Origin: Myxococcales bacterium 68-20
Lineage (GTDB): Bacteria > Myxococcota_A > Polyangia > Polyangiales > Polyangiaceae
Length of the DNA stretch: 32,225 nt
Assembly: GCA_001899635.1 (NCBI GenBank)
Contig: MKVQ01000047.1
Span: forward strand, 1-32,225
Direction: 5' to 3'
The notes beneath the pieces were generated by a model. The model saw only the letters and a program-made list of their open reading frames with translations, was not told where the DNA came from and made no database searches. A program made the translations under genes and the position numbers. Shown piece by piece: positions 15,528 to 27,442 of this stretch (its first letter is position 1; every line of letters starts with the position of its first letter).

Positions 15528-16634
15528 TCAGCGGAATTGGATCTGTACCGGAACGGTGTGTTCCACGAACGAGCCGTCGCCGAGCTGGCCTCGGTCGTTC
15601 GCGCCCCAGCAGCGGACATACCCGCCCTCGAGCCGCGCGCACGTCCCGTCCCCGGCCGCAGCGATCTCCTTGCCCTGGACGAGGCCGACGACCACCCGCG
15701 GGCGGGTGCTGTTCTCCGTCGTCCCGATCGAGAGCTGATGGCTCTCGTTGGCCCCCCAGCAAGCGACCGTCCCGACGTGAAGGAGCGCGCAGGTGTGGCG
15801 GCGTCCGGCGGCGACCTGGATCACCCCGTGGAGCTCCGGGATCGAGACCGGCGTCGCCGAGTCGTGCGTTGTGCCGTCACCGAGCTGGCCGGCGTCGTTC
15901 TTCCCCCAGCAGCGAACCGTGCCGTCCTCGATCAACGCGCAGGTGTGATCGCCACCGGCGGCGAGCTCCTTGACGACGACCGAACCGAGCAGCGGCTCGC
16001 GCGGCGCGGCCACGGCGCGCCCGCGACAGACCACCTCCGCGTTCGAGCCGGCGCCCTTCTCGTACGCGGCGCAGGTATGAGCGGCGCCGAGCACGAACGA
16101 GCGCACGGGCACGCCTCGCGACCAGTCGCCATCACCGATCTGTCCCTCGTCGTTCGCGCCGAAGCAGCGGAGACGCTCACCGGCATCACCAGCTCGCACG
16201 CACGTGTGCGCGCCGCCGACGGCGACCGCCGCGCCGGTGCCGCTCGCGTCCGCGAGCGTGATTGGGCTGAGGCTGCTCGTGCTACCGGCCCCGAGCTGAC
16301 CACGGCTGCCGTCTCCCCAGCACTGCACCGTCCCTCCCTCGAAGACGCCGCAGCCGTGCCGCTCGCCGAGCGCGAGCTCCTTGACCTTGCCGGCGCCGAA
16401 GCTCATCTTCGTCGCCGACGCTCGCGCGGTCGTCGTCCCGTCACCGAGCTGCCCCGCGTCGTTCACGCCCCAACAGGCGAACGTCCCGCTCGTGCGATGG
16501 GCCGGCGTGTCGACGCAACCGCCGCTCGGTCCGAGCCACACCCGCTTCGCGATCGGCGGCTTGCTCCGCTTGCACCCCGCGAGCAGCGGAACCGCAACGA
16601 CGAGCCCCCCGGCGATGAGCAGTGTGCGGATCAA
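15528..16634 (-). CDS. RCC1-repeat beta-propeller lipoprotein
   Basis: A 368-aa protein starting at TTG 16634, which overlaps the mgtE stop as TTGA. The signal peptide ends L-L-A-G-C with lipidated Cys21. The rest consists of RCC1-type units with the pattern C-W-G-x-N-D-x-G-Q-L-G-D-G-T. Six are clear and one, around C-R-G-R-A-V, is degenerate, giving about seven blades as in BLIP-II-like propellers. Each blade carries paired Cys (C-W-G and H-T-C-A), probably disulfides. The protein should be a surface or periplasmic binding module. Its ligand and any link to magnesium transport are unknown. Confidence 0.85.
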   Translation of the reverse strand: MIRTLLIAGGLVVAVPLLAGCKRSKPPIAKRVWLGPSGGCVDTPAHRTSGTFACWGVNDAGQLGDGTTTARASATKMSFGAGKVKELALGERHGCGVFEGGTVQCWGDGSRGQLGAGSTSSLSPITLADASGTGAAVAVGGAHTCVRAGDAGERLRCFGANDEGQIGDGDWSRGVPVRSFVLGAAHTCAAYEKGAGSNAEVVCRGRAVAAPREPLLGSVVVKELAAGGDHTCALIEDGTVRCWGKNDAGQLGDGTTHDSATPVSIPELHGVIQVAAGRRHTCALLHVGTVACWGANESHQLSIGTTENSTRPRVVVGLVQGKEIAAAGDGTCARLEGGYVRCWGANDRGQLGDGSFVEHTVPVQIQFR

Positions 16635-18016
16635 TGGACGCCGTGACTCGCGAGGATGGACGCCATGACGATCTTGGCGACGTGGACGAAGATGATGATG
16701 CCGAGCACGTCGACGAGGCTGGCGATGAACGGCGTCGAGCTCGTCGCCGGGTCGAGCCCGACACGCTTGAGCACGATCGGCAGCATCGCGCCGACCACAC
16801 AGCCGGTCACCACGATCCCGACGAGCGTGAGCCCGACGGTGAACGCGAAGTCGATGTGCTGCTCGGGGTACATGAGCACGCGAGCCATGCCGAAGAGGCC
16901 GAGACCGAGGCCGAGCACGAGGCCCATCGCCAGCTCGCGGACGAGGATCCGATACCAGTCCCGCATCTTGATCTCTCCGACGGCCATGCCGCGGATGATC
17001 AGGGTCGAGGACTGCGAGCCGGAGTTGCCGCCTGCGGAGATGAGGAGCGGGATGTAATAGGCCGCGCCCTTGATCGCGTCGAAGACGGGGTCGTAGTAGC
17101 GGAGCGCCGTCTGGGTGAAGAACTCACCGAAGAAGAGGATGAAGAGCCAGACGCCGCGCTTCTTGATGAACGAGAAGAAGCTCGTACGGAAATACGGCAC
17201 GTCGAGCGGCTCGACGCCGCCGAGCTTCTGGACGTCCTCCGTCTGCTCCTGCGTGAGGACGTCGACGATGTCATCGATCGTGATGACCCCGAGGATCGTG
17301 CCCTTCTCGTCGATGACGGGCATGACGTTGAGGTCGTACTTGGCCATCTTCCGCGCGACCTCTTCCTGGTCCTCGAGCGGGGGCACGCTGATCACGTTCG
17401 TGGTGAAAATCTCGCTGATGGGCTGGAGCGGTGACGCGAGCAGGAGATCGCGCAGCGATGCGATGCCCATGAGGCGCTTCTTCTCGTCGAGCGCATAGAC
17501 GTTGTAGACGTTCTCGTGGTGGTTCTCGGCGTGCGCCCGGACGGCGTCGACCGCGGAGCGCACGCTCACCTCCGGGTTCACCGAGACGTACGCCGTCGTC
17601 ATCAGGTGACCGGCGCTCGTGTCCGGCCACTTCTCGATCTGGCGGACGTTTTCGGCCGCCTCGGGGTCGACCTCCTCGAGCTTCTCGAAGATGGCGTCGC
17701 CGACCGACTCCGGCAGGAGGCTGAAGAGGTCCGCGCGATCGTCCGGCGCCATCTCGCTGGCGATGTGGGCGACGCTCTCGAGCGGCATCGCCTCGACGAT
17801 CTCGCCCTGCTCCTCCTCGTCGAGGCGCTCGAAGATGGGGGCGGCTTCCTCGGCCGGGAGCCGGGCGAGCAGCTCGGCCGCCTCATCGGCGTCGAGATCT
17901 CCAACGAGGTCGGCGAGATCCTCGGGATGGATCTCCCCGAGCAGCTCGCGAACCTGGTCCGGATCCTCCTTGAGGACCTGCTTCAGGTCGGGGCCGAGCA
18001 GGGAGGCGAGACGCAT
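16631..18016 (-). CDS. mgtE: Magnesium transporter MgtE
   Basis: 461 aa, the normal MgtE length. A superhelical N domain (about residues 1-130, with repeated 'L-x-x-L-P-x-E' and 'D-D-R-A-D-L-F') is followed by two CBS domains (about 137-260: A-G-H-L-M-T-T … I-T-I-D-D-I-V-D-V). These form the Mg-sensing gate. About five membrane helices (285-461) hold the conserved pore motif G-G-N-S-G-S-Q (usually G-G-N-A-G-x-Q) and a late Asp in S-L-V-D-V-L-G. It imports Mg2+ down its gradient. There is no room for a long riboswitch leader, because the divergent cupredoxin gene begins 40 bp away. It appears to head a three-gene transcript with the RCC1 and pirin genes. Confidence 0.92.
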   Translation of the reverse strand: MRLASLLGPDLKQVLKEDPDQVRELLGEIHPEDLADLVGDLDADEAAELLARLPAEEAAPIFERLDEEEQGEIVEAMPLESVAHIASEMAPDDRADLFSLLPESVGDAIFEKLEEVDPEAAENVRQIEKWPDTSAGHLMTTAYVSVNPEVSVRSAVDAVRAHAENHHENVYNVYALDEKKRLMGIASLRDLLLASPLQPISEIFTTNVISVPPLEDQEEVARKMAKYDLNVMPVIDEKGTILGVITIDDIVDVLTQEQTEDVQKLGGVEPLDVPYFRTSFFSFIKKRGVWLFILFFGEFFTQTALRYYDPVFDAIKGAAYYIPLLISAGGNSGSQSSTLIIRGMAVGEIKMRDWYRILVRELAMGLVLGLGLGLFGMARVLMYPEQHIDFAFTVGLTLVGIVVTGCVVGAMLPIVLKRVGLDPATSSTPFIASLVDVLGIIIFVHVAKIVMASILASHGVH

Positions 18017-18658: not shown

Positions 18659-20599
18659 TCACTTGAGGCGCATGCAGCGCGCGCCGAACGACCCGCCCTT
18701 GTTGCGCGGCGTCATGATCTGCGCCTTGTGATGCGTGACGCTAGCGTAGCCGAGGCCATAGCCCTTGTAGTCGAAGCGGTCGTTCGACTTCACGACGGTC
18801 TCGAGGAGGTTGCCCTTGAGGTCGAACCATCCCTCGTCGCTCGGAGCGATCTTCACGACGTCGGCCGCGATCCGCCCCGGCGGCGCGATCCGACCCGAGT
18901 CGTCCGCATCGCTGCCTGCCTCGTACCAGACGGCGTAGCAGGCCTTGCTGCTGTCGTCCGCCATGTTGATGCCGTTCGTGCAGTTGCCCGCGGAGCCGAT
19001 TCGCCCGTTGACGACATGCTGCATGACCTCTTCGGTCACGAGCTGGCCACCGTCCCACGCGCAGAACGCCGCGAACATCGCGAACGTCGTGCAGTTGAGC
19101 GCGCGCTGGTCCATCTGGGCCTGCGTGAACGCCCTGCCTGTGACGTTCTCGGGCGGCTTCGCGCTGATCGCCTGGATCGTGGCGGTCGGCATCCAGTAGG
19201 TCCCGACCCCGTACGACTGCTTCTCGTTCGAGCAGTTGAGCGCGTGGCTCGCCGCGTATTCGGGGTTGTACTCCGGGAAGAAGTGGTATTCGCCGAACGT
19301 CTGCGCGAGGCCGGGGTAGATCGTGTAGGTCCCCGAGCTCACGCTCCAGCTCGTCTGGGTGCGGACCGACAGGTACACGTCCTGGCCCGGGTAGAGAAAG
19401 CCCGAGAGCGGCTGCGACTGCGCCGGCGTCGGGTTCGCGATCGTGTACATCACGCCCGGCTGGTTCCCGAGCCCCGTGTTCGAGGGCAGCACCGCCTCCC
19501 AGGCGAGGTGCCAGCGTGCCGGCCGGTTGGCGGCCATGTACCCCTTGATGTCGGGGACACCGCCCTGCGCAGCAGTGACCGTGTCGACGAACGCACGCAT
19601 GCGGCCGGCCGTGATCTCGTATTTGTCGAGGTAGACGGTCTTGCCATCCTGCTGCGGGTAGTTCGTGACAGCTAGTGAGCGACAGCAGTCGGCGTCGCCG
19701 TTCGGACCGCACGTCTGACCGCCGTTGGTGACCCGACAGCTCGGCCCCGTCAGGCACTTGTTCGTGCCGCTGCACGCATTCGACGTGCAATCGGCGTCGA
19801 CGAGGCAGGCCTTGTCCCAGTCGCACTTCGGCGCGAGGCTGCCGCCACAGTCGACGTCGGTCTCGTCGCCGTCCTTGCGGCCCGCCTTGCGCGGCTCGCA
19901 GACGTCATCGGTGCAGAAGCGGCTGTCGCAATCCTCGCCTTGCTTGCAGGCCTTGCCTTCCGCGCAGCGCGGAGCATCGAAGCCGCCGCAGTCGACGTCG
20001 GTCTCGTTGCCGTTCTTCACCCCGTCCGTGGTCGTGGCCGGCGTGCAGGTCCCGGTCGAGCCGCAGATGCGGTTCACGCAGTCGTCACCGACCTTGCACT
20101 TCAGCCCGTCGGCGCACCTCGGCGCGTCGGTCGGCGCGCCGCCGCCACAATCGACGTCCGTCTCCGTTCCGTTCTCGACGCCATCGGTTGCGCTCGCCGG
20201 CGCACAGACGCCCGAGGCGCAGACCTTGTCCGCGCAATCGGTCGCCTCGACGCACGCCTTGCCCGCCGCGCAGCGCGGACATGCCGCCCCTCCGCAATCG
20301 ACGTCCGTCTCTCCGCTGTTCTTCGCGCCGTCGACGCACGTTGCTGGAGCACAGCCGTTGTCGATGCAGCGAGCCCCTCCGCACTCGCTGTCGTCGGTGC
20401 ACTTTCGCCCGGGCACGCACGCATTCGACTCGCAACGACCACCGCCACACTCGTCGTCGGTCGTGCACTTGGCTCCGATCGGCACCGTCGACGTGGCCTC
20501 GGCCGGCGGGGCGTCGGCAGCATCCGTCGTGCAGGCTCCCGTGAGGGCGAGAAGCGAGAGCGAGGCCAATCCGAGAACGAGCGCGCGTAGCGGGAACAT
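18659..20599 (-). CDS. Cys-rich lipoprotein with sulfatase-modifying-factor-like domain
   Basis: 646 aa from ATG 20599, chosen because AGGGG lies six bases upstream; ATG 20617 is an alternative. The signal ends L-T-G-A-C (Cys23). Residues about 40-290 carry Cys-rich modules with four copies of E-T-D-V-D-C-G-G alternating with 'C-x-D-D-x-x-C' units. The rest resembles the formylglycine-generating-enzyme (SUMF1) family: Y-L-D-K-Y-E-I-T near the start, D-L-K-G-N-L-L-E later, and a final K-G-G-S-F-G-A-R-C-M-R. The catalytic Cys pair of true enzymes is not evident, so it is more likely a binding or structural protein at the cell surface. Confidence 0.75.
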   Translation of the reverse strand: MFPLRALVLGLASLSLLALTGACTTDAADAPPAEATSTVPIGAKCTTDDECGGGRCESNACVPGRKCTDDSECGGARCIDNGCAPATCVDGAKNSGETDVDCGGAACPRCAAGKACVEATDCADKVCASGVCAPASATDGVENGTETDVDCGGGAPTDAPRCADGLKCKVGDDCVNRICGSTGTCTPATTTDGVKNGNETDVDCGGFDAPRCAEGKACKQGEDCDSRFCTDDVCEPRKAGRKDGDETDVDCGGSLAPKCDWDKACLVDADCTSNACSGTNKCLTGPSCRVTNGGQTCGPNGDADCCRSLAVTNYPQQDGKTVYLDKYEITAGRMRAFVDTVTAAQGGVPDIKGYMAANRPARWHLAWEAVLPSNTGLGNQPGVMYTIANPTPAQSQPLSGFLYPGQDVYLSVRTQTSWSVSSGTYTIYPGLAQTFGEYHFFPEYNPEYAASHALNCSNEKQSYGVGTYWMPTATIQAISAKPPENVTGRAFTQAQMDQRALNCTTFAMFAAFCAWDGGQLVTEEVMQHVVNGRIGSAGNCTNGINMADDSSKACYAVWYEAGSDADDSGRIAPPGRIAADVVKIAPSDEGWFDLKGNLLETVVKSNDRFDYKGYGLGYASVTHHKAQIMTPRNKGGSFGARCMRLK

Positions 20600-20844
20600 C
20601 GAGCACCCCTGCTGCATTTTTCGTTCGCAGCCGTAACGGGGTTCTTCGTGGCCCCCGCGATGAGCGTACAAGCAGCATTTGGTGCCCGGCGAGCGATCCC
20701 GAGAGGCTGACCCCGGTGGTCGAACGATCCATCGAGCCAGGGCGGCGACCTTTGCGAAGGCGCGTCCTGGGCGTCACGCGCGCGCTCTCACCGCTCCCGC
20801 CATCGTCGAGCAACCGCGTCGCGAGCGATGGCATCGGACCCTCC

Positions 20845-21732: not shown

Positions 21733-24555
21733 TCACTTCGCCGTCGCGTTCGAGCCGTGCGCGTAGCCCCACTCGCGAAGGAGCCGCGCCATCTCCTCGG
21801 CGCCTTCGTCGCTCGCCGCCCCGCCCTGCTCGCCGTCACCACCGCGACGCTCGCGCGCGACGAAGAGCCCGACGTCGCGCTGGGCGTCGATCATCGGCAG
21901 CGCGATCGACTGCGCCGCGAGGCGTGCCTCGTCCGTCGCCACGCCCTTCCTCAAGATGGGCGCGACGAGACCGAACGGACCGCCGAAGACGCCCTCCTCC
22001 GGCCACGGCTTGTCGTCGAGCCACAGCTCCCACGTCACCGGTGTGCTCGGCGGATCGATCACGATGTCGAACCCGACCGCCGCGGAGGGGCTCGTGTGGA
22101 GAGCAACCTCGATCTTGCCCTGCTCGGCCCGGAACGCGTCGCGGCCGAGCTCGACGGGAGTCACGTCGAAGGTCTTCGGCTTCGTCTTGCCGTCTCCGAT
22201 CACGATCGTGCCCGACGCCCGGCGTGAGGTCGGGCCGCCGGCGAAGCGAAGGCGGAGCATGGGTGGACTCTGCGCATCGGCCTGCGCGAGCGCCCCCTGG
22301 CGCTCGGACGAACCGGCGACCGGGACGTTCTTCAGCGCCGCCTCGAGGCGCGCCTTCATCTCCGCGACGACCTCGGGCTTGCTCGGGGCGAGATCCCGTC
22401 GCTCGCCCGGATCGTCGACGAGATCGAAGAGCTCGACCTCGGCCTCCCGCGTCTTGTCGCCCTGGGTGATGATGCGCGCTGCGCCCTCGCGGACGATGAG
22501 CCGCCAACGCCCGTACATGATCGCGCGCGAGCCTCGGCCCTCCGACACGACGACGCGCTCGTCGCTCTCGTCGCGATCCGCTTGCCCTTTCGCGAGCGGG
22601 AGAAGCGACTTGCCGCTCATCCGAGCATGATGCTCGACGCCGAGGAGATCGAGGACGGTCGGCGCGATGTCGATGCTCCGCACCCGCGCCTTCACCTCGG
22701 TGTTCGGCGCGATCGTGCCGGGCGCAACGATCAGGATCGGGACCTTCGTCGTCTCCTCGTAGTTGCTCGCCGCGTGGTGATAGCGGATGGGCATCTTGTC
22801 GAGCCCGCTCGTGCCCGCGTGCGCGGACGAGAGCGTCTCGCCGTGGTCCGCGGTGACGACGACGATCGTCCGATCGCGAAGGCCGGTCTCGTCGAGCTTG
22901 CGCATGAGAACGCCGATCGCCTCGTCGTCCTTCGCTGCCTCCGCCATGTAGAGGCGCGCGATCTCGTCCTTCGGTCCCGCCGGCGGCGGGGGCACCTTCT
23001 CGAGGTACTTCGCCGGCGGCTCGTACGGCTCGTGCGGCGAGTTGAAGTTCACGAAGGCGAAGAAGCGCGTGTCCTTGTTCTCCTCGATCCACTGCGCCGC
23101 GGACTTCGTGATCTCGAAGGTGTCGCGCGTGCGATAGCGGTGGTCGTCGACGCGCTCGAAGCCGAGGTCGACACCGACCGGCGCGTAGCCGACGATGAAG
23201 TAGTTGTTCACGAACGCGCGCGTCGTCATCCGCTGCCGTCGCAGCGCCAGCGAGACGAGCGGCGGGTCGGAGCCGTAGAAGCGTTCGGCCACGGACGGCG
23301 TCACGATCCAGTCCTTCGTGCCGATGCCGAGCTCACTCGAGCGCGCACCCGCGAGCATCGCGAGCGTCCCCGGCCGCGTCCACGTCCCGGCGGAGTACGC
23401 ACGCGTGAAGCGAGCGCCTCGCCTCGCGAGGTCGTCGATCTCCGGCGTGAGCCCGGGGACCCTCGGCAGGAGCGCCTCGAGCGGCGGATGCGGAGCTGCG
23501 TGCTTCGCGGCGTCGTCGGCGTCGTCGTGGAAGCTCGCGATGACGTCCGGCCGGAGCGCGTCGACGACGATCCAGAGGACGTTGTAAGGCAGCCGCGGGG
23601 TCGTCTTCGCGAGGATGGTGGGGTTGCCCCACAACGCCACGGGCGAGCTCGGGGTGGTGAGCGCGTCCTCCCGCACGACGCCGGCGTCAGGCGAGGGCTT
23701 GCCGTTGCCCGACCCTCCGTAGGACCTCCCCGACGTCACCGGCTCGCGCGAACGGTCCGCTTTGTGGGCGTCGGCCGGGGACTCGGTCACCTTCGTCGTC
23801 TCGGTCGAGAGGACGAGCTCGACGTCCTGACCTGCAAAGGCGGACAGGTCGCAGCTCGCGTCGGTCCACCGCCGCGCGGCGCTCGGCTGGAGCTCGTGGC
23901 GGTAGACCTCGTGACGCGCGCCCTTGCTGTCGAGCACCGCGACGGCGAACACCGTCGCCTCGTCGGTCGCGTTGACCGTCCCCTCGGCGAACGTGAGCTT
24001 CGCGCCGTGCGGGACGTTCACGCGAAACGCGATCGAGCCGGGCGGCGGCGAGACGAAGGCCTCGCGCTGGTCGAAGCTGCCCTCGTTCATGTTCCACACA
24101 CGCGCGTCGGGCACCCACGTACCGTCGTTCCCGATGGACGTCGCCCACTGCATCTCCGACGCGCTCGCCCGAAGCGCGATCGTCGTGACGAACCGCGCGG
24201 CGTCGCCGGTCACGGGAAAGAACGGCGGCTTCTGCTGGCGCCAGTGCGCCTTCATCACGGCACGTGCTCCGTCGGCCCGCGGCATCTCGAAGCGCGCGCC
24301 GTTCGCGATCTCGACGAGCCTGACCGAGACCTCGTAGCCGTCACCAGGCTTCACCGGCGCGTTCTCGACGGCGCCCGCCGTGCTCGAAGGGCTCGAGGAT
24401 CCCGCGCTCGCCGGGCGCGGCGGCGAAGCCGGGGGCTCGGCTCCGCCACCGACGCGCCACGCGACGACGCCCAGTGCCCCGGCGGCGACGAGAACGAGCA
24501 CGCGCGGCACGACCGCGAGCGCTCGCTTCGAGAGCAGCTCGCGTCCGATCGTCAT
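21733..24555 (-). CDS. Sulfatase-superfamily hydrolase with N-terminal beta domain
   Basis: 940 aa; the ATG at 24555 overlaps the stop of the upstream sulfatase-like gene as ATGA. One membrane helix (about 13-36), a Ser/Pro linker, a beta-sandwich-like domain (about 75-260), a linker, then the alkaline-phosphatase-superfamily domain. Metal motifs are V-V-D-A-L-R-P-D (Asp342) and T-A-D-H-G-E-T. The nucleophile position reads T-W-T-R-P-G-T, so Thr403 replaces the Cys/Ser of C-x-P-x-R, and the Arg is Thr. A further beta-rich domain of roughly 150 residues ends the protein. It should act in the periplasm on a sulfate or, more likely, phosphate ester; the substrate is unknown. Confidence 0.8.
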   Translation of the reverse strand: MTIGRELLSKRALAVVPRVLVLVAAGALGVVAWRVGGGAEPPASPPRPASAGSSSPSSTAGAVENAPVKPGDGYEVSVRLVEIANGARFEMPRADGARAVMKAHWRQQKPPFFPVTGDAARFVTTIALRASASEMQWATSIGNDGTWVPDARVWNMNEGSFDQREAFVSPPPGSIAFRVNVPHGAKLTFAEGTVNATDEATVFAVAVLDSKGARHEVYRHELQPSAARRWTDASCDLSAFAGQDVELVLSTETTKVTESPADAHKADRSREPVTSGRSYGGSGNGKPSPDAGVVREDALTTPSSPVALWGNPTILAKTTPRLPYNVLWIVVDALRPDVIASFHDDADDAAKHAAPHPPLEALLPRVPGLTPEIDDLARRGARFTRAYSAGTWTRPGTLAMLAGARSSELGIGTKDWIVTPSVAERFYGSDPPLVSLALRRQRMTTRAFVNNYFIVGYAPVGVDLGFERVDDHRYRTRDTFEITKSAAQWIEENKDTRFFAFVNFNSPHEPYEPPAKYLEKVPPPPAGPKDEIARLYMAEAAKDDEAIGVLMRKLDETGLRDRTIVVVTADHGETLSSAHAGTSGLDKMPIRYHHAASNYEETTKVPILIVAPGTIAPNTEVKARVRSIDIAPTVLDLLGVEHHARMSGKSLLPLAKGQADRDESDERVVVSEGRGSRAIMYGRWRLIVREGAARIITQGDKTREAEVELFDLVDDPGERRDLAPSKPEVVAEMKARLEAALKNVPVAGSSERQGALAQADAQSPPMLRLRFAGGPTSRRASGTIVIGDGKTKPKTFDVTPVELGRDAFRAEQGKIEVALHTSPSAAVGFDIVIDPPSTPVTWELWLDDKPWPEEGVFGGPFGLVAPILRKGVATDEARLAAQSIALPMIDAQRDVGLFVARERRGGDGEQGGAASDEGAEEMARLLREWGYAHGSNATAK

Positions 24556-26786
24556 CGCGCCGGCTCCGACCGCTGGACCGGAACGAGATAGCCGTCCCGC
24601 TGCTCCATCGTCGAATCGCGGAGCATCCACGCCCAGAGCTCCGCGCGGAGCCGTGTGACCTCGTTCGGATGCGCGGCGGCGACGTCCTCGCGCTCGCCGG
24701 GATCCGCCTCCGTGTCGAAGAGCATGTAGCGCACGCCCGCGCGGGTCGGAACGTAGACCAGCTTCCAGCGCTCGTCGCGCACCATCCGATGCCTCGCCAT
24801 CCGCGTCACCCCGAGCATCTCCTTGCGGAGCACGATCTCGGCGTTGTGACGCGCGTCGAGCTCGGTGAGCCCCATGACGCCGGGATACGGCATCCGCAGC
24901 GCCGGCGGCAGACCGGGGATGTCCTCCGTGAACCACAGCTCCGTCTCGGCATAGGCGAAGCGGGGCGCGATCGGCTCGCCTCGCAGCGCGGGGACGAGGG
25001 ATCGCCCGTCGAGGTCCGTGGGCGGCTCGATGCCGGCGAGCTCGTAGAGCGTCGGCGCGAGATCGACGTCGCGCACGATCGCGCGCTCGTTCCTGCCTCC
25101 ACCGAGGCGTGGATCGTAGATGACGAGCGGCACGTGCGTCCCCTCGTCACCGAAGAGTTGATCGCCGTGCCCCTGCCCTCGCCCGGCGTCGAAGATCGTC
25201 TCCCCGTGATCGGCGGTGACGACCACGATCGTGCTCTCCGCGAGGCCGAGGCGGTCGAGCGTCTTCAACACGCGCCCCATCGCGTCGTCGACGGCGGTGA
25301 CCGCGCCGTCGTAGAGGTTCTGGATCTGGCGGACGTCGGCGGCGTCGGGCGCGATCTCGGCGGCACGGCCGAGCCCCATCGGCTTGTGGTACTTGAACCG
25401 GCCTCGATACGAGCGATCGGTGTACTTCGCGTAGTAGGGCGCCGGCGCGGCGTATGGGAAGTGCGCGGTCGAGAAGAACACGGTGACGAAGAAGGGGCTG
25501 TCCTTCATCGAACGAAGCGCCGTCTCGACGTCGTCAGCGAGGAGCCTCGGATCCGCGGCTGCGCTCAGCTCGCGCATCACCGGAAAGAGGCGGCGGCCGA
25601 GATGCGAGTGCAACACCGGCAACAGCGGCGTCTCGCGCTCGAGCACCTTCTGCCGGATGATCTGGCGGAAGTCGAAGGCCGGCGTATCGACGCGCTCGAA
25701 GCCGAGGTCGACCCGTCCGAAGATGTCGCCCGCGTAGTCGCTCACGACGCCCGTCGCGTATCCGGACTTCGCGAAGCGTCCCGGCAGCGCATCGAAGTCC
25801 TTCGCGCGCTCCTCCCACGTCGGGAACATCGACCGGATGCCGTGATGATGCGCATGGCGTCCGGTCAGGATCGTCACCCACGAGGAGAAGGTGCGTGGCA
25901 GCGAGACGTACGCGCGATCGAAGCGCGTCGACCGCGCAGCGAGCTTCGTGAGATTGGGAGCGACGCGCGGGTCGACGCGATCGGCGCGGAGGGAGTCGGC
26001 CGCGAGGACGAGGACGTTGAGCGGCTTGCCTGCCCTGCTCGCCGGCTCCGCCGCGCTCGCCGGTCCCGTCGCAGGTCCGGCGGCGTGCGCCAGCTTCGCC
26101 GTGCGCGGCCCCTCCACGAACATCGCGCCCGTCGCAGCGATCGCGAGCGCGGCGATCGGGGCGATGCTCGTCTTCGCGATGCGAGCCGCGAGCGTGCGAA
26201 GGGGACTTCGTGCGACGAGCACCACCCGACGCGCGACGTACGCGAGCCGTGCCGGGCGGACGTAGAAGATGGCGAGCACGAGCGCCGCGAGCACGACCCC
26301 GCGAGGACCGAGGGCGTCCGTCGCGATCACCTGCACGGTCCGGCGCAGACCACCCTGGTCGTACCAGCCCGCCGCATAGAGCTGTGGGGTGTCGGCCATC
26401 GCCCAGCCGACGAGCGCCGCGTGAAGGGCGGCGACGAGCAACGCCGACTCGACGAGCACGCCCGCCGGCGAGCGACGGGCCAGCTTCGACGCCGGGTGCC
26501 GGAGCCGCAAGAGGAGCTCCGCGACGAGCCCGATGACGAGCCCGAGGGCGATCGCCGTCGCGACGACGCCGATCTTCATCCGCGTCACCTCCGCGGGGAA
26601 CCTGCGCGCGATGAACGCCTCGACGGCCTCCGTGCGGCCGACGTCTCCGACGTCGACATCGATCCCCGACGAGCGCATCCCCGCCCACGCGGAGAGCGCA
26701 GCCACGTACGCCGCGCCGACGAGCGGCGGCGCTACGAGCGCGGCGCGAGCGCCGTGCGCGATCCGTCGGAGGGATCCCGGGAGCAC
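24552..26786 (-). CDS. Multi-pass sulfatase/LTA-synthase-like membrane protein
   Basis: 744 aa from GTG 26786; GTG 26873 is in frame but would overlap ykgJ-like coding and has atypical codons. About five membrane segments lie in the first 225 residues (near 15-34, 73-94, 109-129, 163-176 and 208-224). A periplasmic alkaline-phosphatase-superfamily domain follows: N-V-L-V-L-A-A-D-S-L-R-A-D (about 257-269) and T-A-D-H-G-E-T. The nucleophile site is R-T-F-S-S-W with Thr299, not C-x-P-x-R. Topology and Thr nucleophile match LtaS/OpgB-type phosphoglycerol or phosphoethanolamine transferases. Its stop overlaps the next sulfatase-like start, so the two are probably made together. Confidence 0.78.
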   Translation of the reverse strand: MLPGSLRRIAHGARAALVAPPLVGAAYVAALSAWAGMRSSGIDVDVGDVGRTEAVEAFIARRFPAEVTRMKIGVVATAIALGLVIGLVAELLLRLRHPASKLARRSPAGVLVESALLVAALHAALVGWAMADTPQLYAAGWYDQGGLRRTVQVIATDALGPRGVVLAALVLAIFYVRPARLAYVARRVVLVARSPLRTLAARIAKTSIAPIAALAIAATGAMFVEGPRTAKLAHAAGPATGPASAAEPASRAGKPLNVLVLAADSLRADRVDPRVAPNLTKLAARSTRFDRAYVSLPRTFSSWVTILTGRHAHHHGIRSMFPTWEERAKDFDALPGRFAKSGYATGVVSDYAGDIFGRVDLGFERVDTPAFDFRQIIRQKVLERETPLLPVLHSHLGRRLFPVMRELSAAADPRLLADDVETALRSMKDSPFFVTVFFSTAHFPYAAPAPYYAKYTDRSYRGRFKYHKPMGLGRAAEIAPDAADVRQIQNLYDGAVTAVDDAMGRVLKTLDRLGLAESTIVVVTADHGETIFDAGRGQGHGDQLFGDEGTHVPLVIYDPRLGGGRNERAIVRDVDLAPTLYELAGIEPPTDLDGRSLVPALRGEPIAPRFAYAETELWFTEDIPGLPPALRMPYPGVMGLTELDARHNAEIVLRKEMLGVTRMARHRMVRDERWKLVYVPTRAGVRYMLFDTEADPGEREDVAAAHPNEVTRLRAELWAWMLRDSTMEQRDGYLVPVQRSEPAR

Positions 26787-26845: not shown

Positions 26846-27442
26846 TCAGCCTCGCGACCGCTGGGCTTGCCACTCCCGCGAGACGCGCGAGATCGGTCGC
26901 GGTCCGGGATCGGCGGGCGCGAACCGAGCCGAGAGCGCGGCGATGTCGCGCGCCACCTCGGTGATCGTCTCGCGCGGGAGCCCGGAGTCGGCGCGCTCGC
27001 CCACGGGTCCGCGCGCGCGCTCGCAGAAGAAGGTGCGGCAGCCGAACGGCCGTGATGCATAGACGAGGCAGCGGCCCTCATCGCCGAGGAGGGCGCAGCG
27101 CCGCTCGTCCTCGCCGTCGTCTGCATCGGCTTGTCGCGACCGCCTTGCCCCGCGCGCATGAGAGGACACGAGCGGGAGCGAACGCCGCTTCGGCAGGCCG
27201 CCGCGAGCTCTCACCGCGCGGTCGAGCTCGGCGACCTCGACCGCGGTCGGATAGGGCTCGCGTCCGGTCACCCCGAAGCGGCAGCAGTCGGTGCTCGCGT
27301 CGCATCCCCACCCCTCGAGCGCGCCGTCGATCTTCGCGTAGAGCGCGCGGAGCTCTTGAAGGAGTGGCGCCGATGCGGACGCGGTGCCAGATGAGCGCCC
27401 AGATGAGCGCGAGGATGCGCTGGGAGGCCGCGGTCCACGCAT
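26846..27442 (-). CDS. YkgJ-family Cys-cluster protein
   Basis: 198 aa from ATG 27442. Conserved cysteines are C47 and C53-C54 (C-D-A-S-T-D-C-C-R-F-G), then R-C-L-V-Y-x4-F-G-C-R-T-F-F-C. This is the pattern of the YkgJ/UPF0153 family, proposed to bind zinc or an Fe-S cluster. The mid-region is Arg/Asp-rich and low in complexity. The protein is cytoplasmic, with no signal. It is divergent from the MEMO1-family gene (59 bp) and 59 bp upstream of the sulfatase-like pair, so it may lead that transcript. Biochemical role unknown for the family. Confidence 0.75.
   Translation of the reverse strand: MRGPRPPSASSRSSGRSSGTASASAPLLQELRALYAKIDGALEGWGCDASTDCCRFGVTGREPYPTAVEVAELDRAVRARGGLPKRRSLPLVSSHARGARRSRQADADDGEDERRCALLGDEGRCLVYASRPFGCRTFFCERARGPVGERADSGLPRETITEVARDIAALSARFAPADPGPRPISRVSREWQAQRSRG

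Follow-up and report, generated by a model that had tools for sequence, protein, structure and literature searches.

What would two adjacent, sulfatase-shaped proteins, neither of which carries the motif of a classical sulfatase, be doing together in the envelope of a myxobacterium? Thr-nucleophile enzymes of the sulfatase fold (LtaS, EptA, OpgB, and others) modify the envelopes of many bacteria and, to our knowledge, the substrates of many superfamily members have yet to be identified. The two genes considered here, B and A, lie on the minus strand (as do all the features given below) of a window of 32,225 nt, i.e., the whole stretch analyzed, from Myxococcales bacterium 68-20 (contig MKVQ01000047.1). 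Gene B (24552..26786) encodes a 744-aa membrane protein, modeled as a membrane part (residues 4-203; 26178..26777; AlphaFold model and hydropathy) with five long helices (residues 20-37, 64-96, 107-132, 146-176, and 178-203 in the AlphaFold model) followed by a sulfatase-fold domain (about residues 254-740; 24567..26027), a layout resembling LtaS, YejM, and EptA, the last of which has a five-helix membrane part as well. Gene A (21733..24555) encodes a 940-aa anchored protein with a single N-terminal helix, the predicted signal anchor (residues 11-35; 24451..24525), and a sulfatase-fold domain (about residues 320-745; 22321..23598) that seems to be flanked by beta-rich parts on both sides (residues 62-305, 23641..24372, with a weak MAM/jelly-roll likeness, and residues 764-932, 21760..22266), the anchor and the beta domains being placed from the AlphaFold model, and both sulfatase-fold domains from the PF00884 profile, the AlphaFold models, and a structure search. 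These models (pLDDT of 85.8 for B and 85.3 for A) bear out the layouts proposed in the first-pass annotation of this DNA. The ATGA junction it had described is confirmed too: the TGA of B and the ATG of A share 24552..24555 (tcat on the plus strand), and a 4-base overlap is also seen among the loci of relatives (16 of 40, using script-chosen starts). Both are sulfatase-shaped proteins, probably of the cell envelope, and would face the periplasm.

The same annotation had noted that both proteins lack the C/S-x-P-x-R signature and show a Thr at the nucleophile position instead (T-R-P-G-T in A and T-F-S-S-W in B), and this stands: in phmmer alignments against solved sulfatases, T299 of B (PRTFSSW; 25890..25892) and T393 of A (WTRPGT; 23377..23379) fall under the C of the CxPSR-type motif. 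The predicted metal ligands are D264 (25995..25997) and D526-H527 (25206..25211) in B, and D332 (23560..23562) and D570-H571 (22843..22848) in A. Nearly all relatives have the Thr as well, namely 33/34 (A) and 30/32 (B) of the family rows reaching that position, and 16/17 (A) and 5/5 (B) of those from outside the family. As each protein would thus have a Thr nucleophile within a D/T/D-H site, neither should be a formylglycine sulfatase, and phosphoryl, rather than sulfuryl, chemistry would be expected of both. That they are ordinary formylglycine sulfatases whose nucleophile had merely been misplaced is hardly credible: their PF00884 membership (137.4 bits for B and 110 bits for A against a cut-off of 25, in scans of the mechanical ORFs, which start at a GTG further upstream; 137.5 bits for B when started at 26786) and their best matches, which are sulfatases both by sequence and by fold, speak for it, yet it is contradicted by the alignments, and only one of the 16 PF00884 matches in this genome (L080) has the classical set (CTAGR, DD, DN). 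The Thr does not, however, distinguish the two proteins, since 13 of these 16 matches have it; it is also present in 30 of the 59 Pfam seed sequences according to PMC5066984, where formylglycine formation from Thr is described as never demonstrated, and LtaS, EptA, MCR-1, and YejM are all named as Thr enzymes in PMC7576196. Thr by itself is ordinary; the pairing of A and B is not.

No NCBIfam profile cut-off is reached by A or B, which places neither of them in an already characterized subfamily covered by these profiles. LtaS (NF053595) gives 20.1 bits for B and 35.8 bits for A against a cut-off of 970; the EptA/phosphoethanolamine transferase profiles give 18.8 and 13.9 bits for B against cut-offs of 493-500, with no match listed for A at an E-value of 0.1; YejM/PbgA/LapC (NF038282) gives 28.4 and 28.6 bits for B and A, respectively, against 825; PehA/phosphonate monoester hydrolase (NF045661) gives 91.3 and 61.7 bits against 900; and choline sulfatase (TIGR03417) gives 105.5 and 84 bits against 433. 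The best-scoring NCBIfam profiles are those of arylsulfatase and choline sulfatase rather than LtaS or EptA, so that the “LtaS-like” label given to B applies to its layout, whereas its catalytic domain scores nearer to arylsulfatase, choline sulfatase, and PehA; two separate proteins of this genome (L081 and L089) are nearer to the EptA/MCR group than B is. By fold, the phosphonate monoester hydrolases and the dimeric sulfatases SpAS1/SpAS2 are close to both catalytic domains (4upl, with Z-scores of 31.3 for A and 36.4 for B), but these hydrolases, described in PMC5066984, use formylglycine where A and B have Thr.

The pair turned out to be conserved: among the 108 family genomes, both genes are found in 38, A alone in 1, and B alone in 2 (presence and absence being called with score thresholds of our own), and 31 of these 38 carriers have them as neighbors on the same contig, all such genome and locus counts being not independent of phylogeny. 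The phylum sample (377 genomes, family members included; thresholds outside the family of at least 450 bits for B and at least 350 bits for A) adds 12 carriers of both, with B found in 15 and A in 16 genomes outside the family; the two lie side by side in four of the 12 (G175, G222, G267, and, in reversed order, G247) and on different contigs in eight, A passes without B in four genomes (G231, G412, G290, and G271), B without A in three (G204, G167, and G317), and the scores of both form a continuum across the sample. Locus absences are to be read as lower bounds, as tblastn overlooked B of L051 (whose frame is open and Thr motif present), and the ORF choice by GC3 in the script can overlook genes, as happened with A in L207. 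In the tree, all A sequences make up one group and all B sequences another, each with a support of 100/100. Judging from the sequences, A and B are paired and co-inherited.

The recurring unit is wider than the two genes first pointed out. The first-pass annotation had suspected that the YkgJ-type CxxCxxCC protein gene upstream (198 aa; 26846..27442; 19.8 bits, below the Pfam cut-off of 23, relatives in L045 and L061 scoring 27.9 and 23.4 bits) belongs with the pair, and such a gene is indeed often found there (14/41 loci); on the other side, a gene for an MgtE magnesium transporter, which here lies 3.7 kb away (16631..18016), is the next downstream gene in many relatives, giving the recurring order YkgJ-B-A-MgtE. 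A natural empty site is seen in G054, where Memo is 154 nt from MgtE, with no A, no B, and no YkgJ match.

Some loci go further, as B and A are fused in them, A's anchor having no counterpart and the junction no hydrophobic stretch; both active sites are intact in one such fusion (L049), A is intact in another whose stretch covers only the end of B (L059), and two are degenerate (L046 and L060). Where both sites could be scored (26 family loci), 22 keep all eight listed residues in A and B, while in four, three of which belong to the genus of the window, catalytic residues are gone from both A and B, with frames open. The two sites are not always changed together: in L216 (G247), A carries D332C and T393S while B is intact. 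Compared with the window, A of L046 and L079 has a ratio of second-position to fourfold-site differences of 0.68-0.72, and A of the intact L061 and L062 one of 0.44-0.50; the ratio between L079 and L062 is 0.52, and the more distant intact rows L076 and L041 give 0.55-0.65. These values indicate at most relaxation in the degenerate pairs and are no proof of continuing selection. As A and B tend to be co-inherited, to fuse, and to lose their active sites jointly, they probably share one job, in agreement with their initial description as a coupled pair.

This bears on the possibility that the two are separate degradative phosphodiesterases or phosphatases sharing an operon by chance, e.g., for phosphate or glycan scavenging. 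Their closest profiles are those of hydrolases, many such enzymes are encoded in this genome, A and B are on different contigs in the eight outside-family carriers mentioned, and in L208, L214, and L215, which are of this split kind, the A-type gene adjoins, and is followed by, a GH13 alpha-amylase family gene with a glycogen-binding domain. Co-inheritance, fusion, and joint residue loss nonetheless point to one function, and B, with its five-helix membrane part, is unlike a secreted hydrolase; independent degradative roles are, on balance, unlikely.

That the pair works in the envelope without catalysis, or chiefly as a regulator, with B sensing a lipid and, together with A, controlling envelope assembly in the manner of YejM/PbgA/LapC (a single protein, for which we know of no A-like partner), seems improbable as well. 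The structural matches of B include full-length PbgA (6xlp) and the periplasmic domain of YejM (6vc7), with a Z-score of 32.7, but the 6xlp alignment to the B model (residues 1-727) has an rmsd of 23.1, the membrane part and the domain not being superposed together, and the YejM profile scores given above are far from the cut-off. The four loci with open frames despite degenerate sites would suit such a role, and would fit a structural one as well, while the retention of every listed residue in the other 22 argues against it. Also in favor of a regulatory pair, the LpxC family is found in 35/38 pair carriers versus 27/70 of the other family genomes (a Fisher test was run), and a flagellin control shows no such link (19/38 versus 38/70); against it, LpxC is without a match in two carriers, G034 and G035, although the Thr motif of A is retained in both, and that of B in G034, the one of the two in which this part of B was covered. 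YejM does share with B the five-helix membrane part, the Thr, the Asp at the first metal position, and the sulfatase fold; it is itself reported as a magnesium-dependent phosphatase, per PMC7576196, a further point against a non-catalytic pair.

Two acceptors can be set aside as unlikely. The OpgG family (PF04349), an indirect marker for the synthesis of osmoregulated periplasmic glucans, is found in 5/108 family genomes, none of them among the 38 pair carriers (nor was there a match in G000 by profile search), so that an osmoregulated periplasmic glucan is probably not the substrate; and the KdtA N-domain family is matched in only two of the 108 (G068 and G078), neither being a carrier, which speaks against Kdo-lipid A. 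Given the LpxC family in most carriers, a Kdo-less lipid A may still be the acceptor.

The reading we favor, tentatively and with a little less than even confidence, is that B and A are a periplasmic pair of Thr-nucleophile phospho-group transferases/hydrolases, forming one functional unit and acting in sequence. Both would belong to the alkaline phosphatase/sulfatase superfamily, depend on divalent metal, and work at the periplasmic face of the inner membrane, each via a covalent phospho-Thr intermediate, on one substrate sequentially or on a substrate and its product. B would most likely load its Thr from a phospholipid of the membrane or from a phosphodiester linked to lipid, and A, tethered by one helix and equipped with jelly-roll-like domains, would most likely transfer, redistribute, or hydrolyze that phospho group on some larger molecule of the envelope, the order of the steps being presumed. 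Glycan binding by A may be envisaged. As to the identity of its beta domains, against Pfam 11/27 members touch the immune-inhibitor-A MAM model with the N-terminal domain (best E-value of 0.0084; nothing firm), the C-terminal domain touches two families in one member each (nothing firm either, and none at all in A of the window), PDB sequences gave nothing firm for the beta domains, the structure search, run with whole A, listed mainly sulfatase chains and thus barely probed these domains, and in a search of viral models some CenC-like carbohydrate-binding entries turned up alongside many unrelated hits, the part of A covered not being given. A more elaborate version, quite doubtful in our view, would be a two-site relay, in which the phospho group passes from the Thr of B to the Thr of A or to the acceptor of A within one complex, neither activity being useful alone, in myxobacteria that show no Kdo-transferase family match and may assemble the outer surface of the cell differently; in some lineages the pair would have become a double pseudoenzyme with a structural or sensory role.

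Known systems offer partial likenesses to the proposed sequential pair. In Listeria, LtaP and LtaS are likewise two superfamily enzymes in one pathway, one starting and the other extending, but both are described as highly LtaS-similar (PMC2764115), whereas A has a single anchor plus a beta domain on either side of its sulfatase fold; their product is a Gram-positive polymer, moreover, and A and B are below the LtaS cut-off. The membrane/periplasm split of B and A resembles that of E. coli OpgB, whose membrane-bound form (phosphoglycerol transferase I) takes a phospholipid head group and whose soluble periplasmic form (II) moves it between glucans, these being, as described in PMC3818809, two forms from one gene rather than two genes. 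EptA/MCR have a Thr-nucleophile metal-dependent domain (PMC7576196), as B would, but the first metal position of B is an Asp instead of a Glu, and B reaches at most 18.8 bits with EptA-type profiles. No account of this A-B pair was found in the literature searched, which mostly did not cover subscription journals and is no proof of absence.

The B-A fusions, the empty site, and the double active-site losses, all found in relatives within one genus or family, are natural controls for the function of the pair and open it to direct tests, in a family with a Kdo-transferase family match in only 2/108 genomes.

Two neighboring minus-strand genes of the window, B (24552-26786, GTG start, 744 aa) and A (21733-24555, ATG start, 940 aa), overlap by a shared ATGA, and both encode a sulfatase (PF00884) domain according to the profile search. 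The AlphaFold model of B shows five long helices followed by the sulfatase fold (24 aligned sequences, pLDDT 85.8), whereas that of A shows a single helix and then the sulfatase fold with a beta domain on either side of it (35 aligned sequences, pLDDT 85.3). The window is an entire contig (32,225 bases) of an 11.9 Mb genome (G000), and the records of its relatives are labeled Labilithrix, Polyangiaceae, “Myxococcales”, Deltaproteobacteria and, in a single case, Sorangium cellulosum, which places the host among these myxobacteria. The pair noticed in the first-pass annotation is real, and the case for it turned out much stronger than had been thought there, as co-inheritance, fusion, joint loss and an empty site make B and A look, at the level of sequence, like a unit.

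Among the 108 genomes of the family, A (at least 190 bits, the next score down being 92) is found in 39 and B (omitting as paralogues L088-like matches of 34-37% identity, e.g., in G004 and G098, and a 75-bit match in G031) in 40, both being present in 38, only A in G004 and only B in G008 and G048 (Fisher 1.4e-25, phylogeny uncorrected). The two are neighbors on one contig in 31 of the 38 carriers, lie about 2 kb apart in G079, and are on separate contigs, some at contig ends, in six (G061, G045, G080, G042, G034 and G032). A phylum sample of 377 genomes, family members included, has B (at least 450 bits) in 15, A (at least 350 bits) in 16 and both in 12 genomes outside the family; the genes are adjacent in four of these 12 (G175, G222, G267 and, in reverse order, G247) and on separate contigs in eight (both at contig ends in G329), and G317 has a weaker A match (275 bits) beside B. 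B and A form a single open frame at four loci (L049, L046, L060 and L059, the B of the latter being cut by a contig end), none of which has a hydrophobic stretch at the junction, so that the fusions lack A's anchor and should have their two catalytic domains on one and the same side.

Alignment to solved sulfatases places T393 of A and T299 of B in the formylglycine column, and the sets D332, T393, D570, H571 (A) and D264, T299, D526, H527 (B) are nearly invariant among relatives. Both sites thus have one Asp plus Asp-His, as opposed to Asp-Asp plus Asp-Asn, the former being the residue set associated with phosphodiester enzymes. Thr itself, on which the first-pass annotation had leaned, is a weaker argument: it is ordinary in G000, as 13 of the 16 PF00884 matches there (15 of which exceed the cut-off) have Thr at the nucleophile position in the alignment. 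Of the others, L080 is the sole match with classical CTAGR, DD and DN (its Cys sits one column off in the alignment, and it was placed by motif), L090 has Ala, and the nucleophile of the below-cut-off L092 could not be placed. According to PMC5066984, Thr is also found there in 30 of 59 Pfam seed sequences, and formylglycine formation from Thr has never been demonstrated; the sites of LtaS, EptA, MCR-1 and YejM are given in PMC7576196.

When these four residues per protein are followed through the 26 family loci with both sites scoreable, all eight are kept in 22, and the same four loci (L079, L046, L058 and L060, from genomes G057, G058, G063 and G081) have at least one altered in A and at least one in B, the chance of which, if independent, would be 1/C(26,4), about 7e-5, phylogeny uncorrected. 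Although three of these loci come from the genus of the window, intact rows fall between them in quick trees. The frames of A and B remain open at all four, and gap events in A number 17-34 in comparisons with degenerate rows, as against 9-15 where both rows are intact (five comparisons) and 2 between the closely related L041 and L048. These are perhaps double pseudoenzyme pairs, from which the main rival of an enzymatic reading, a YejM-like regulatory role of the pair, gains. Outside the family, joint loss is not strict, as L216 has an altered A (D332C, T393S) adjacent to an intact B.

G054, a 98% complete genome of the window's genus, has no match to A, B or the YkgJ-type gene, and its Memo and MgtE genes adjoin, leaving an empty site; G059 also lacks the pair, its contig ending at that position. 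Memo and MgtE may therefore mark a site rather than being partners. The 41 loci surveyed comprise the window and 40 stretches from relatives, to which some genomes contributed two, and the counts are lower bounds, as many stretches end early. MgtE follows A downstream, in the same orientation, in at least 21 (within 102 nt in at least 10; on the opposite strand in none), Memo is divergent in at least 14, and a YkgJ-type gene precedes B by no more than 250 nt, again in the same orientation, in at least 14, being farther off in L075 and on the opposite strand in L078. The gene directly after A is often MgtE, with Memo divergent on the other side; the coordinates noted for this observation, which also takes in the Memo-MgtE neighbors of G054, are 16631-18016 of the window and L234:2669-5486. 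The YkgJ-type gene, tentatively grouped with the pair earlier, is not tied to it, as it also occurs in the pair-less G006 and G007. A 670-aa ORF of the window (18659-20671) has no Pfam or NCBIfam match, and G059 (L235) has a stretch 86% identical to the C-terminal part of this ORF.

No named NCBIfam family fitted either protein, every listed score being under its cut-off: arylsulfatase PRK13759 (B 117.8, A 100.5 bits vs. 481), choline sulfatase (105.5, 84 vs. 433), PehA (91.3, 61.7 vs. 900), LtaS (20.1, 35.8 vs. 970), YejM (28.4, 28.6 vs. 825) and EptA-type profiles (B 18.8 and 13.9 vs. 493-500). Two other G000 proteins, L081 and L089, have phosphoethanolamine-transferase profiles on top (84.5 and 68.1 bits, below cut-off). 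A tree built from 45 catalytic domains gives one group for A and one for B, each with 100/100 support and distinct from L081/L087/L089 and from L080; the distant L129 pair falls in both groups, and the paralogue L088 in that of B. L088 itself (732 aa, with Thr and five hydrophobic segments) follows, with a 4-base overlap, a 795-aa ORF that has no Pfam match (L238:7111-11693, on G000:C40), and the two may be a further coupled pair whose partner is of another type; a family 2 glycosyltransferase and a weakly matched YfhO lie in the same stretch. Sulfatase-family genes may also lie near each other in the Paenibacillus records L134 and L142, in both of which the match to A is longer than one gene, and in L142 A and B match two separate ORFs. 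Sulfatases and phosphonate monoester hydrolases are the top structural matches of both models (A vs. 4upl: Z 31.3, rmsd 2.8, 362 aligned; B vs. 6hr5: Z 37.8, rmsd 2.5, 349 aligned; B vs. 4upl: Z 36.4, rmsd 3.3, 397 aligned), and B also matches YejM/PbgA entries at Z of about 32 (6vc7: Z 32.7, rmsd 2.8, 322 aligned; 6xlp: Z 32.7 but rmsd 23.1).

To the extent that OpgG is a marker for OPG, OPG is an unlikely substrate, OpgG being found in 5 of the 108 family genomes and in no carrier (control positive in E. coli). In three genomes from a different family (L208:4469-9622, L214:6861-12490, L215:2861-8015), the A-type gene is followed by a gene of the GH13 alpha-amylase family that carries a glycogen-binding domain, which hints at a glycan. 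LpxC is matched in 62 of the 108 family genomes (61 above cut-off) but the Kdo-transferase N-domain in only two, neither a carrier (controls positive in E. coli, Caulobacter and Bacteroides), and the lipid A route of the family may be unusual. LpxC is commoner in carriers (35/38, missing in G064, G034 and G035) than in other family genomes (27/70), also by genus (18/19 vs. 16/29, Fisher 0.0035), which makes a lipid A-like acceptor possible, while flagellin, taken as a control, shows no link with the pair (19/38 carriers vs. 38/70 others). Relatedness may explain the LpxC link, and the Thr motif of both A and B is kept in G034, where LpxC has no match. Given the precedents of LtaP/LtaS (PMC2764115) and OpgB forms I and II (PMC3818809), the most economical reading would seem to be a split of labor, in which a membrane enzyme would load the head group of a phospholipid and another enzyme would pass it on.
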